Source: an uncultured Methylococcaceae bacterium (GTDB lineage Bacteria > Pseudomonadota > Gammaproteobacteria > Methylococcales > Methylococcaceae). From it: DNA of 39,028 nucleotides. Shown here in pieces: positions 484 to 6,023 of this stretch. The translations under genes and the position numbers were made by a program. Position 1 is the first letter of the stretch; each line of letters begins with the position of its first letter. The notes under the pieces were generated by a model that ran no database searches, was not told where the DNA came from, and worked only from the letters and a program-made list of their open reading frames with translations. The stretch lies in contig CAIODU010000206.1 of NCBI GenBank assembly GCA_903857165.1, forward strand, positions 1-39,028, given 5' to 3'.

Positions 484-654
484 TCATGGCAGTGACGCAG
501 GAGCATGGGAACCAGAAAACAGCCGCCGACAGAATGCCTTGCCGCCGCTGGCTATGGTTTTGCCCAAACTATCATACACGAACCGCTGCCCCTGCTGGTC
601 GTGGCGGATCAGGTATTGCTTGCTTATGTTTTCAGCGTGGATGGCGGTGGTCAT
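484..654 (-). pseudogene. Truncated Wzt-like ABC ATPase, copy A (5' fragment)
   Basis: Reads as a 56-residue peptide beginning MTTAIHAENISKQYLIRH, then runs out of frame homology and stops. The first 43 or so residues match copies B, C and D nearby. They correspond to the N-terminus of the polysaccharide-export ABC ATPase family (Wzt/TagH type), ending well before the Walker A motif. Its ATG overlaps the stop of the Rpn gene at 651 in an ATGA arrangement, so it may still be translated by coupling. It cannot be a working ATPase. Family assignment rests on copy C, which keeps Walker A. Confidence 0.75.
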
Positions 655-1619
655 TGTCGCTTTTGCAGCCAGTCGTTTATGTCGTCAAGGTTTCTTGCAT
701 CCAGCAAAACTTCGCTGAATGCCTCCAGTTGCCCCGCGTCCATTTGACGCAACCGCTCCACCAATGGCTCAGGCAAGGTGGCGAAGCGCCGACCCAACAA
801 GCGCAGGATGATCGTCAACTCGCCTTCTTGCCTCCCTTCTTGCCTCCCTTCTTGCTTCCCTTCTTGCTTCCCTTCCTGCCTTCCTTCTTGCTTCCCTTCC
901 TGCCTTCCTTCTTGCTTCCCTTCCTGCCTTCCTTCTTGCTTCCCTTCCTGCCTTCCTTCTTCGTGCCCTTCTTGAAAGACATCCTGATAAAATCGGGTTT
1001 GCTTCAGTTCAATGTCTTGTAATCCGATCATCTGCTTAATCTCCTCTCTTGTCAGTTTAGGAAGCTTGTATACCAAAATCGTTTCGATGATGTCCAGCCA
1101 CTCATTCCTTGGCATGGGCAAAGTGTCTTGATACGTTAAGGCTTCACGAACTTGCTCCTCCGCCTCTTCGTGTGGGCAAACCATCAGGGTCACCAATCGC
1201 ATTGAGGGCGATACGGCGGCGATGTCGCGATAGTCCTCCAGAAATATCCGATGGACTTCGGGCAAGTCCAACAGGCTACGGAAGTGTAGCCCGGCATCCT
1301 TTTCGGTTGCCCTGTCTGGGTAGATGACTACCGCTTGCCAAGGGTGCGGCGGTTTATATTGCCGCAAGTACAGAAATATCTCGCTGAAGAACCGTGCGTA
1401 AAACTTGGCATCGCCTTGTAATTGCGCTTCAACAAATACATAAGGCCGATCCTTGCTTGCTTCTGGCGGGATGAGGATGCCGTCCAACCGAAAGGCGGTC
1501 TGCTTGATTTCTTCTGAACGAAACACATAGCCTTCCGCCGAATAGTCCAAACCCGCCAATTCCAAGGGTAAACCGGGTATGCGCTGAAACAAGCGGTAAA
1601 ACAGGCTGTCGGTTTTCAT
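651..1619 (-). CDS. Rpn-family nuclease/putative transposase (DUF2887 + DUF4351)
   Basis: A 322-residue protein starting MKTDSLFYRLFQ, the usual opening of DUF2887 proteins; ten further in-frame residues upstream lack family support. The PD-(D/E)XK-like core is visible as FRLDGILIPP followed by YVFVEAQLQ (D...E-x-Q). After the core comes a tract of eleven R/K-Q-E-G repeats, then a C-terminal DUF4351 block (ELTIILRLLGRRFATLPEP...). The Rpn family is linked experimentally in E. coli to DNA cleavage and RecA-independent recombination; activity here is inferred. Its stop overlaps the ATG of ABC copy A by 4 bp. The last ~60 codons are nearly identical to the fragment at 4319-4624. No strong ribosome binding site is visible. 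Confidence 0.85.
   Translation of the reverse strand: MKTDSLFYRLFQRIPGLPLELAGLDYSAEGYVFRSEEIKQTAFRLDGILIPPEASKDRPYVFVEAQLQGDAKFYARFFSEIFLYLRQYKPPHPWQAVVIYPDRATEKDAGLHFRSLLDLPEVHRIFLEDYRDIAAVSPSMRLVTLMVCPHEEAEEQVREALTYQDTLPMPRNEWLDIIETILVYKLPKLTREEIKQMIGLQDIELKQTRFYQDVFQEGHEEGRQEGKQEGRQEGKQEGRQEGKQEGRQEGKQEGKQEGRQEGRQEGELTIILRLLGRRFATLPEPLVERLRQMDAGQLEAFSEVLLDARNLDDINDWLQKRQ
822..953. repeat. 12-bp tandem repeat inside the Rpn gene
   Basis: Eleven units of 12 bp encode R/K-Q-E-G on the minus strand. The R/K alternation gives a 24-bp higher-order period. The homologous fragment at 4319-4624 has only two such units and the Rpn2 gene has a related M-Q-K-G tract, so unit number clearly changes. 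It lies in the hinge between nuclease and DUF4351 domains, and because 12 is divisible by 3, slippage keeps the frame. Confidence 0.9.
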
Positions 1620-2866: not shown

Positions 2867-3826
2867 TCAATCCCGCAAAACCTCTTCCGCCGAAGCGGCA
2901 TTCAGCAGCCTGTCACTCCACAGCAACAGGGTTTCCGCGTCGGCGGTTTGCAGGCTGTGGCGCATTGCCTCATCCACGCTACCAAAACGTCGCTCCATCA
3001 ACCGCAGCAGCAGCGTCGCCTCGCCTTTTTGCATGCCTTGTTGCATGCCTTTTTGCATGCCCTGTTGCTCCCATTCCTCAGTCCATTCGATAACCCGTTC
3101 TGCCAACATGCTCTTCACCTCTTGCAATTCGTTGAGATTCTCGAAATCCACACCCGGCATCCGCCCCGGCAACAGCACCCGCTTCAGCCACACGGTGAAG
3201 GCCCGTCGCAACGAGTCTTGCCCGGGTGCCTTCAGCCATTCGACCAAGGCGGCCAGCACCTGTCCCACCTCCTGCGGGGTGCTGCTATTCTCCAGGCGGA
3301 ACAGTGCCGCCGCCACGTTGCGCAACGGGGCCAGTTCGCTGTCGGCATAGCGGCCCTCGTCCAGCAGCAGGTAGCTCAGTCGCGGGCGGTAGCGGTCCAG
3401 CCCGCTAGGCGCGGCGGCGATCAGGTCGGCAACCTCTGTTGCCGCCGTCCAGCGCGGCTTGCCGTTGTACAGCACGACCGGCAGCACCGGCGGTAGTTTG
3501 CGTTCCGCCGTCAAGCCCCCGGTGCGGATGATGTCTTGGTAGAGTAGGCCGAGGTAGGCCAGCACCCGCACCGCCATGAACGGGTCAACCTTCGATTGGA
3601 ACTCGATCAGCAGGTAGACGTAAAGCCATTCAGGCCCAAGCCGCACCCGCCAGACGATGTCGTCCAAACGCTCACGCAGGTCGTCAGTGACGTATCCGTC
3701 ACCCGCGCGTTCCAAGGTGGCGAAGTCCAAACCTTTCACCCAGTCCTCATGCACAAAGCCGCGCAACAGGTCTGCGACCATCTCGGGGTGGGAAAACAGG
3801 AGTTTGTAGCTGTGGTCGTGATCCAT
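2867..3826 (-). CDS. Rpn-family nuclease/putative transposase (YhgA-like + DUF4351)
   Basis: A 319-residue protein starting MDHDHSYKLLFSHPEMVADLL, the canonical opening of the YhgA-like/transposase_31 family. The PD-(D/E)XK-like residues appear as RLDDIVWRV and LLIEFQSKVD (D...E-x-Q). A short M-Q-K-G/M-Q-Q-G repeat precedes a C-terminal DUF4351 segment (EATLLLRLMERRFG). The longer upstream reading is the remnant of ABC copy D and was excluded. It is a different subfamily from the Rpn gene at 651, so two independent Rpn acquisitions lie in one locus. A 30-residue N-terminal scrap of a close relative sits at 5906-5995. Confidence 0.85.
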   Translation of the reverse strand: MDHDHSYKLLFSHPEMVADLLRGFVHEDWVKGLDFATLERAGDGYVTDDLRERLDDIVWRVRLGPEWLYVYLLIEFQSKVDPFMAVRVLAYLGLLYQDIIRTGGLTAERKLPPVLPVVLYNGKPRWTAATEVADLIAAAPSGLDRYRPRLSYLLLDEGRYADSELAPLRNVAAALFRLENSSTPQEVGQVLAALVEWLKAPGQDSLRRAFTVWLKRVLLPGRMPGVDFENLNELQEVKSMLAERVIEWTEEWEQQGMQKGMQQGMQKGEATLLLRLMERRFGSVDEAMRHSLQTADAETLLLWSDRLLNAASAEEVLRD

Positions 3827-3903
3827 TCGGGCAGTATAACGCTCGGCGGGGCGGTTGGGAATGTGCTGGGCGGGTCGTCGGCAATTTTCACGATTCATTG
3901 CAG

Positions 3904-4322
3904 CCAATGACGCCCACCTGGTCGCCTTGCTGGATTTAAAAGTTTATGTCTTGCAGCGCCCAAAATCCATCCTTGCTAGACATTGTGGCTACCAGCTTAA
4001 GGCGGGACAGGTTAAGCCGTTCGTGGTGAGCCCTTCGGCTACGCTCAGGAGAGCCTTGTCGAACCATGAACGGCTTACCCACCCGACCACCCCCCTTCGA
4101 CAAGCTAAGGGCGAACGGGTAAGCCTTGTTCGTGTCCCGCCTTAAGTGGGTAGCCGATATTGTGAAGCGGGAAGCGAAAGGATGCAATTGCCGATTGCAA
4201 AATGCCCTGCCGCCGTTGACCAAGCTTTCGCCCAAACTGTCATAGGTGAACCGCTGGCCCTGCTGCTTGTGTCGGATCAGGTATTGCCTGCCCAGGTTTT
4301 CAGCGCGGATGACGGTAGTCAT
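3904..4322 (-). pseudogene. Wzt-like ABC ATPase, copy D, interrupted by a MITE
   Basis: Starts MTTVIRAENLGRQYLIRHKQQGQRF. It matches copies A-C through HPFASRFTI, is then interrupted by a 169-bp repeat element, and resumes as MSSKDGFWALQDINF with an in-frame stop at 3936. Similarity continues untranslated to about 3904, next to the Rpn2 gene. The ATG overlaps the stop of the Rpn fragment at 4319. At DNA level it differs from copy A by roughly one base in five, while the Rpn ends just upstream of each are nearly identical. Confidence 0.78.
3987..4155. mobile_element. 169-bp MITE-like element with 23-bp terminal inverted repeats
   Basis: The left end GGCTACCAGCTTAAGGCGGG and the right end CCCGCCTTAAGTGGGTAGCC are complementary with few mismatches. 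Flanks GACATTGT (3979-3986) and GATATTGT (4156-4163) look like an 8-bp target duplication with one mismatch; the intact sequence in copy C has GACATTGT once. The interior carries the dispersed CTTCGACAAGCT palindrome. No protein is encoded. Confidence 0.75.
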
Positions 4323-4624
4323 TGTCGCTTTTGCAGCCAGTCGTTTATGTCGTCAAGGTTTCTTGCATCCAGCAAAACTTCGCTGAATGCCTCCAATTGC
4401 CCCGCGTCCATTTGACGCAACCGCTCCACCAATGGCTCAGGCAAGGTGGCGAAGCGCCGACCCAACAAGCGCAGGATGATCGTCAACTCACCTTCTTGCC
4501 TTCCTTCTTGCCTTCCTTCCTCTTGCCCCTCTTGAAAGACATCCTGATAAAATCGTGTTTGTTTTAGTTCAATGTCTTGTAAGCCGATCATCTCTTTAAT
4601 CTCCTCCTTTGGTAATAATTTCAT
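4319..4624 (-). pseudogene. 5'-truncated Rpn gene (C-terminal fragment with DUF4351)
   Basis: The readable ORF starts MKLLPKEEIKEMIGLQ and matches the last third of the Rpn gene at 651-1619, including IELKQTRFYQDVF, two R-Q-E-G units (eleven in the other copy) and the whole DUF4351 tail ending INDWLQKRQ. The N-terminal nuclease core is missing; the upstream sequence is the fcl stub, so the ATG is probably fortuitous. The final ~180 bp is nearly base-identical to 651-830, indicating recent duplication or gene conversion. Confidence 0.8.
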
Positions 4625-4740: not shown

Positions 4741-5827
4741 CTACTCTTCATAGTGGTTTGTGTAGTAACCGTGTTGTTTGACGAGTTCATCCCGTTGGGC
4801 GCCCTTCAAGTCTTCTTGCACCATTTCCTTGACCAGATCATCGAAACTGATTTTTGGCTGCCAGCCGAGCTTTGCCTTGGCTTTGGAGGGGTCACCGAGC
4901 AGGGTTTCCACTTCGGTGGGACGGAAATAGCGAGGATCAACGGAGACGATACACTGACCGGATGAATCGTAGCCTTCTTCGTGCAAGCCTTCACCTTCCC
5001 AGCGAATATCAATATCCAACTCCTTGGCGGCGATATTGACGAAATCGCGCACACTATGTTGTATCCCAGTGGCAATGACAAAATCTTCCGGTTGTTCCTG
5101 TTGCAGCATCAGCCATTGCATTTCAACATAATCTTTTGCATGCCCGCAATCACGTTTCGCATCAAGGTTGCCTAGATAGATGCGCTCCTGCAAACCCAAC
5201 TTGATGCGAGATAGTGCACGAGTAATCTTTCGCGTCACGAAGGTTTCCCCGCGCGTTGGTGATTCATGATTGAACATGATGCCATTGCACGCATACATAG
5301 AGTATGCTTCGCGATAATTTACTGTAATCCAGAAGGCATAAAGTTTGGCGACAGCGTTAGGGAGAGCGAGGATAAAAGGGGGTGGTTTCTTTTTGCGGGG
5401 TTTCCTGCACTAGGCCGAAAAGCTCCGATGTGGAAGCCTGATAGAAACGGGTTTTCTTTTCCAACCCAAGGATGCGGATGGCTTCCAGAATCCGCAAGGC
5501 ACCCAGGGCCTCGGAGTTGGCTGTATATTCAGGCACTTCAAACGAAACAGCCACATGACTTTGGGCGGCAAGATTATAAATTTCATCCGGCTGAGTCTGT
5601 TGAATGATGCGGATTAAGCTGGAAGAATCAGTCAGATCGCCATGATGCAAAAAGAAGCGGATGCCTTCTTCATGGGGATCACGATACAAGTGGTCAATCC
5701 AATCGGTATTAAATAACGATGCACGACGTTTAATGCCATGAACAACATAGCCTTTCTCAAGCAAGAACTCGGCTAGATAAGCACCGTCTTGACCTGTGAT
5801 GCCGGTAATTAAAGCAGTTTTTGTCAT
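4741..5827 (-). pseudogene. gmd: GDP-mannose 4,6-dehydratase with a one-base frameshift
   Basis: Two ORFs (5827-5357 and 5298-4741) are the N- and C-terminal parts of one Gmd, which makes GDP-4-keto-6-deoxymannose for deoxyhexose synthesis. The N-part has [23 protein letters not shown] and QASTSELFG; the C-part has [20 protein letters not shown]. Between them the correct reading ([20 protein letters not shown]) is preserved, including the Y-x-x-x-K pair, if one extra base is removed from TT at 5357-5358. Corrected length is about 361 residues, normal for the family. Either a very recent pseudogene or a base-calling error; every other position looks sound. Confidence 0.85.
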
Positions 5828-5905
5828 AATGAGAATTTATGTCAATTTTGTTTTGGGATAAAACTTTCCCGTTCCAACGCTCCATCGCCCTTCATTATAC
5901 ACATC

Positions 5906-5995
5906 TTTCACCCAGTCCTCATGCACAAATCCGCGTAACAGGTCGGCGACCATCCCGGGGTGGGAAAGCAGGAGTTTGTAGCTGTGGTCGTGATC
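5906..5995 (-). pseudogene. N-terminal scrap of a YhgA-like Rpn gene
   Basis: Thirty codons, DHDHSYKLLLSHPGM through FVHEDWVK, match the first 31 residues of the Rpn2 gene at 2867-3826 with two substitutions. The start codon is replaced (K-D instead of M-D) and the reading then diverges. It lies between the end of the efflux operon and gmd, so the Rpn-rich zone extends to this boundary. Confidence 0.75.
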
Positions 5996-6023
5996 CTTGG
6001 ATTCCTCGAATAGTTGCCCTGGT

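Follow-up and report, generated by a model that had tools for sequence, protein, structure and literature searches.

In the window, the whole 39,028-nucleotide stretch of DNA from an uncultured Methylococcaceae bacterium that we analyzed, four truncated 5' copies of the sugar-export ABC ATPase gene wzt stand in a row on the minus strand, with ATGs at 654, 1886, 2829, and 4322. Each copy lies directly 3' of a different module: a DUF4351 remnant, a Transposase_31 Rpn gene, a YefM-YoeB pair, and a DUF2887-DUF4351 Rpn gene. Our analysis demonstrates this array, its orthologues in other genomes, the recurrence of its architecture at other genes, and the mixed type of the gene in array slot 5. The account we favor, with slightly better than even confidence, is that the array was built by successive displacement at the wzt 5' end via one-sided homologous recombination. 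The array looks like a fossil record of transposase-free gene spread in a methane-eating bacterium.

The wzt array and its orthologues

All features of the array lie on the minus strand. Slot 1 is a DUF4351-only frame (4319-4624; Pfam), an orphan RpnS-like frame with an internal ATG at 4591-4589 behind GGAGGAG. The wzt stub that adjoins it (3896-4322) is cut at wzt nt ~250 and contains an inserted block at ~3989-4175. Slot 2 holds the Transposase_31 (Rpn) gene (2867-3907; Pfam), with a DUF4351 tail of 26.6 bits (cut-off 25); no counterpart of this gene was seen in the orthologous arrays of the congeneric genomes G001 and G003. Its wzt stub (2467-2829) retains Walker A in a broken frame and is cut at nt ~365, identically to G001. 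The YefM-YoeB module of slot 3 (1890-2421; YefM 2134-2421, YoeB 1890-2207; Pfam and NCBIfam) exceeds the NCBIfam cut-offs (TIGR02116, 60.1 vs 51.8; TIGR01552, 23.1 vs 20.8), with YefM slightly under the Pfam PhdYeFM cut-off (29.1, cut-off 29.8), and is followed by a stub cut at nt ~228 (1661-1886). The DUF2887-DUF4351 gene of slot 5 (651-1649; Pfam and NCBIfam) passes the curated Rpn model TIGR01784 (74 bits, cut-off 52.1), by which it is a member of the Rpn family. The last stub (530-654, ATG 654-652) ends after ~125 nt and gives way to unrelated DNA. PADLOC, run on seven proteins, returned a single weak match, 'putative invertase' (E 0.0015).

Two further features lie upstream of the array. 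A GDP-mannose 4,6-dehydratase gene directly upstream is split into two frames (4741-5298 and 5357-5827, minus strand), and is probably broken or affected by a sequencing error. Beyond it, a 97-bp remnant of a Transposase_31 gene (5900-5996, minus strand) is 93% identical to 3728-3824.

An orthologous array is present in G001 and G003, downstream of the ABC-2 permease gene wzm. The last gene of the G001 array encodes a full-length, 429-residue ATPase carrying both ABC_tran and Wzt_C domains, from which we named the gene wzt. Both arrays carry a nucleotidyltransferase-HEPN-like pair that is absent from the window array, and YefM-YoeB is missing from G003. We refer to the pair as MNT-HEPN, a putative reading, as MntA (type VII MntA-HepT) scores 15.9 bits against a cut-off of 60 and the partner has no model. 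The base at which wzt is cut is common to the window and G001 at YefM-YoeB, to G001 and G003 at MNT-HEPN, and to all three genomes at the last DUF2887 gene. The junctions recur across these separate assemblies, at 84% identity between the window and G001 and 97% between G001 and G003. Because these cut points are common to the genomes, the array predates the split of the window genome, G001, and G003. Modules have been lost since that split and the MNT-HEPN pair was perhaps gained; recombination between stubs would do this in one step.

Despite the common slots, stubs resemble those of their own genome: over wzt nt 4-120, identity is 81-92% within the window vs 76-86% to the G001 and G003 copies. 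The wzt copies thus seem to exchange with each other, in concerted evolution. The last wzt is itself cut after ~125-135 nt in two of the three genomes, at different points (293-427 at locus L040, G003:C288; 530-654 in the window). At a further locus (L039:3071-3772), wzm begins within a GTGA overlap with a Uma2 gene, and a DUF4351-only frame immediately precedes this pair; no stub was seen there, and the tight packing is like that of modules at the partner gene wzt.

Exchange within the array is also suggested by a near-identical patch at the Rpn ends. An earlier note on this DNA had described almost identical Rpn ends in front of clearly diverged ABC copies, and this description is borne out. 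Positions 651-829, from the DUF4351 domain to the ATGA overlap, differ from 4319-4497 by 2 mismatches in 179, and the adjoining ABC starts (530-650 vs 4198-4318) by 23 mismatches in 121 (19%). Both Rpn frames finish in an ATGA overlap, with the ABC ATGs at 654-652 and 4322-4320 (junctions ..GCGACAATGAC..). Alignment across the ATG, the check proposed in that note, gave a sharp step, with mismatches at 822 and 728 upstream and then at 649, 644, 638, 627, and 625 inside the ABC sequence. Beyond the 12-bp repeats, which encode four-residue repeats (823-966, minus strand; 13 units in slot 5 by the pattern used vs 4 in slot 1), Rpn identity is ~82-93% in windows of 40-60 columns and is therefore not uniform within the gene.

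The slot-5 Rpn gene is of mixed type. Its N-terminus is 92-97% identical to the G001 orthologue over the first ~180 bp and 83-90% identical to upstream-slot copies, and its middle part agrees badly with that orthologue (45-77%). By its C-terminal domain it belongs to the upstream-Rpn type, with 98-100% identity to the copy upstream in the window, 87-90% to the corresponding copy of G003, and 50-60% to the G001 orthologue. This mixture points to exchange of Rpn ends (the DUF4351 domain) within the array, and the near-identical 179 bp probably passed between slots 1 and 5, in either direction. Of the two readings put forward at the outset, homogenization of the Rpn ends is thus the better one, while insertion guided by the ABC sequence is unsupported, with unrelated modules at the same ATG. 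The sharp step has a possible simple reason, namely that the wzt copies are homologous to one another only from about the ATG onward. Homology between wzt units starting at the ATG can explain such a step, and exchange among wzt copies would reset identity downstream of it. Two more ABC starts, at ATG 1886 behind YoeB and ATG 2829 behind the Transposase_31 gene, lie beyond the pair considered earlier, and neither homogenization nor ABC-guided insertion accounts for four ABC stubs.

The same layout at other genes

The arrangement of gene stub, module, and gene also occurs at ruvB, rpe, a gene with a weak fn3 match, a CmcI-type gene, a Uma2 gene, and an MqsA-like gene. At ruvB of G002, a stub is followed by YefM-YoeB, which overlaps the intact gene by ATGA. 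A comparable upstream repeat element stands directly before ruvB in G000 without a module, and we take this as the empty site of the G002 case. In G001, a module comes after rpe, as it does after the weak-fn3 gene (19.7 bits, cut-off 25), and behind each module the 3' end of the respective gene recurs as far as its stop codon. In G036, which belongs to another genus, the order is a CmcI-type gene, a DUF4160-DUF2442 pair, a 3' stub, a second such pair, a second stub, and a HEPN pair that runs into the start of a Polysacc_synt gene, by our reading a putative flippase. Pfam was applied to the first of these DUF4160-DUF2442 pairs, where both domains are over cut-off; one pair falls under the curated DhiT-DhiA cut-offs (DhiT, 92 vs 100; DhiA, 17 vs 200). 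Copies of the gene start also lie across a DUF4160-DUF2442 pair at a Uma2 gene of G004, with an 88-bp flanking repeat that is 98.9% identical, and at a weak-MqsA gene of G000 (20.3 bits, cut-off 30). Similarity between stub and intact gene ends at the start codon (within ~8 nt; 19 nt for Uma2) or at the stop codon.

These cases come from scans of 207 loci centered on toxin-antitoxin (TA) or Rpn genes (147 + 60, not all distinct), together with larger stretches. In the 60-locus scan, any flanking match was found at 14/60 TA/Rpn loci and at 0/60 control loci, a weak control drawn from two core genes only (ruvB and rpe) with conserved surroundings. The 147-locus scan, at looser settings and without a matching control, gave a match at 48/147, in many cases to a repeated module or a non-coding repeat. 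Few of the 207 loci carry a stub, so the layout is recurrent but confined to a minority. From the 14 loci we kept L285 and L304 (one locus, the CmcI array), L288, where the DUF4160-DUF2442 pair is named by likeness, and L305. L326 and L332, with Transposase_31 in G006:C304 and in G028, were set apart, the target itself being an Rpn gene.

The remaining loci (L287, L290, L298, L306, L311, L320, L334, and L337) were left uncounted, judged on their match lines; L334, in G015, was examined further and rejected as a stub case, being a tangle of Rpn repeats. G000:C152, G004:C294, L190, and L166 were likewise rejected as flanking duplications, the repeats beside their modules reading as non-coding or scattered elements. 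A dispersed repeat of ~120-160 bp occurs on both strands in many copies on many contigs of G004 and G006. When empty sites of the Uma2 case were sought, most matches were Uma2 paralogues or dispersed repeats. At 30 Uma2 loci, several flanking repeats were neighboring Uma2 copies, and no locus showed a clear gene stub. Each of the seven congeneric genomes has 14-37 Uma2 genes. Finally, at L217 in the single-contig genome G028, a Transposase_31 gene, a HEPN-like gene, a Transposase_31 3' fragment, and a second, 97%-identical Transposase_31 start stand in a row.

Displacement and its alternatives

In the mechanism that we propose, the incoming DNA would carry a small module (Rpn, YefM-YoeB, or MNT-HEPN) attached to the 5' end of a related wzt. 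Homology to the resident wzt would let this piece recombine at its gene end, and its other end would be joined without homology. The resident wzt 5' end would then stay upstream as a stub, leaving the module between stub and gene. Repeated events would yield a series of stub, module, stub, module, and gene, in which the newest module adjoins the gene. Stubs and Rpn tails may later recombine mutually, deleting modules and homogenizing copies. The one-sided recombination, the time order, the direction of exchange, and the antitoxin role of the DUF4351 domain are what we infer in this account.

The main rival is long target duplication, in which a module inserts within a gene and ~90-530 bp of target is duplicated, so that one copy remains intact and the other becomes the stub. 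This predicts the same layout, and the array and stub junctions, which fit one homologous and one non-homologous end, would be left by target duplication as well. It is on record for restriction-modification genes, with duplications of ~100 bp, in the available portions of PMC1643837 and PMC3874152. The grouping of wzt stubs by genome and the Uma2 flanking repeat also speak for it. A test of decay bears on the choice: if a stub is a fresh duplicate that decays, amino-acid changes should be frequent. With a model omega of 0.55, equal times, small counts, and no correction for multiple tests, 6/9 stub-intact pairs show a deficit of amino-acid changes much too large for a decaying duplicate (P 4e-5 to 0.004). 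These are wzt a (4e-5), wzt b (1.2e-4), ruvB (9e-4), the weak-fn3 gene (0.004), CmcI stub 1 (0.0015), and CmcI stub 2 (0.004); the two wzt pairs are not independent, since they belong to one array that itself undergoes exchange. The other 3/9 fit neutral decay, as duplication would have it (wzt c, 0.12; rpe, 0.3; Tnp31, 0.25), and six stub-stub pairs inside the window show no departure from it (P 0.14-0.77). The rpe stub is decayed, and module-region DNA follows rpe in G003, G006, and G000 too, so this gene does not distinguish the two models. The 81-bp ruvB stub of G002 matches its own intact copy at 61/81 positions, ruvB of G006 and of G001 at 68/81 each, two genomes of other genera at 67/81 and 66/81, and G000 and G004 at 57/81. 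By these values the intact copy beside it is not its closest relative, and since the stub is about as near to other genera as to G006 and G001, no donor is singled out. A search of the intact G002 ruvB for a foreign 5' half gave no clear mosaic. Duplication also offers no DNA-level reason for repeat edges at or near the start or stop codons of unrelated genes, although selection for an intact, translated gene may explain these limits in part. Under displacement such limits are expected, as donor and recipient shared only the gene. The synonymous excess, the ruvB stub values, and the codon-edge limits favor two functional alleles joined by recombination, although the excess could also come from later allele exchange at the intact gene. 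Against displacement, no event has been observed, no donor is in hand, the intact ruvB shows no clear mosaic, and the 98.9% identical copies of the young Uma2 case are what plain duplication gives. On balance we judge long target duplication less likely than displacement, though a serious contender.

The other explanations fare much worse. Site-specific entry in which the ABC start guides an Rpn element, as the earlier note had envisaged, would agree with several modules ending within a few nucleotides of the same ATG, and independent rpnC insertions at one locus are known (PMC5350276, in part). YefM-YoeB and MNT-HEPN, unrelated to Rpn, nevertheless arrive at the wzt ATG in the same way, and such modules are placed alike at ruvB, rpe, Uma2, and other genes with no relation to ABC, which makes such guidance very improbable. 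Equally hard to credit is tandem duplication of a single Rpn-ABC unit followed by divergence. It has been proposed for rpn arrays in a preprint (PMC10327210, as far as its text was available), and a DUF4351 tail is common to two of the four window modules; yet the remaining modules between the ABC copies are unrelated, and the wzt cut points differ (~125, 228, 250, 365, and 396 nt). An assembly artefact from mixed strains might be suspected, given that the window's assembly comprises 428 contigs and that the G001 and G003 records are MAGs, but the same junctions recur in separate assemblies and a similar gene-module-stub case occurs in the single-contig genome G028; we give it the smallest chance of all.

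Relation to known systems and features of the DUF4351 domain

Extending displacement beyond wzt, we tentatively suggest, at somewhat less than even confidence, that small TA/Rpn modules spread without a transposase by riding the homologous recombination of any abutting gene, each transfer leaving a stub of the recipient, so that arrays are time-ordered records. If this is true, TA/Rpn modules act as a class of mobile genes that needs no transposase. For rpn, the accessible text of the preprint describes neither inverted repeats nor target-site duplications as present and suggests 'recombination or hitchhiking' (PMC10327210), and autonomous movement vs import by stimulated recombination was left undecided in the portion seen of PMC5350276. 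Stubs beside modules offer a readable trace of transfer. Comparing the stub with the intact gene and with empty sites makes the question of rpn and TA movement testable in existing genomes. The array further shows unrelated modules using the same door, one gene start.

Each ingredient is already known in some form. For effector-immunity modules of the V. cholerae type VI secretion system (T6SS), sequential displacement by homology-facilitated illegitimate recombination has been proposed (Kirchberger 2017, PMC5361080, here known from part of its text). There, as we propose here, recombination is anchored on a conserved gene and older pieces are pushed outward. The T6SS leaves arrays of orphan immunity genes, with anchor and target inside the T6SS cluster, whereas genes as unrelated as wzt, ruvB, rpe, and the CmcI-type gene would act as anchors here, and the remnants are an anchor-gene stub plus DUF4351-only frames. 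Long target duplication (Nobusato 2000, as cited in the available parts of PMC1643837 and PMC3874152) similarly places a selfish module between long direct target repeats, and the sections of toxin-antitoxin reviews consulted apply the term to restriction-modification systems. The modules here, in contrast, are TA/Rpn, and the flanking copies, many of which diverged long ago, stop at or close to start or stop codons. At panC-panD, independent rpn arrivals at one locus resemble our case, but the portion of PMC5350276 at hand reports neither a gene stub nor unrelated modules at the site, both of which are present here. A literature search that covered few subscription papers found no stub trace for TA/Rpn modules at ordinary genes and no report of unrelated modules stacked at one start codon, and these two features are what appears new.

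The Rpn genes of the array share several features with the Rpn/RpnS system. According to the available text of PMC10327210, Rpn proteins are toxins, and translation from an internal start additionally yields their C-terminal part, RpnS, which inhibits the toxin. The same text notes that standalone RpnS genes carry the annotation DUF4351 in some species and that the four-residue repeats vary and determine specificity. The likeness extends to an Rpn-family N-terminus, a DUF4351 C-terminus, variable four-residue repeats, separate DUF4351 genes, and a candidate internal start. The N-terminal domain here is DUF2887, of which no mention was found in the text seen, and a literature search on DUF2887 returned nothing. 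That text also describes no target duplications and puts arrays down to tandem duplication, unlike our reading.

DUF4351 (PF14261) lies at the C-terminus of 651-1649 and forms the separate frame 4319-4624, which would be an orphan antitoxin, a putative role for this RpnS-like domain. In the slot-5 gene, the candidate internal start for a C-terminal, RpnS-like product is the ATG at 1031-1029 (GAGGAG-N9-ATG). Among 22 motif sites, which are distinct but related sequences from the loci read, an ATG or GTG stands 8-9 codons before the LKxTRFYQ-type motif in 21, and the remaining site starts at the locus end. In 19 of the 22, GAGGAG ends 9 nt before an ATG located eight codons ahead of the motif; in 11 long window ORFs, 30% of the Glu codons are GAG. 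At the sequence level, this pattern marks a candidate internal translation start ahead of the DUF4351 domain. A model of the domain, built from a 5-row alignment only, is helical with a mean pLDDT of 72; it has no PDB match at E <= 0.001, and no convincing sequence match to the solved RpnA antitoxin domain was found. In the seven congeneric genomes, 23 of 76 DUF4351 matches fall in frames of <150 residues, counted without regard to contig ends.
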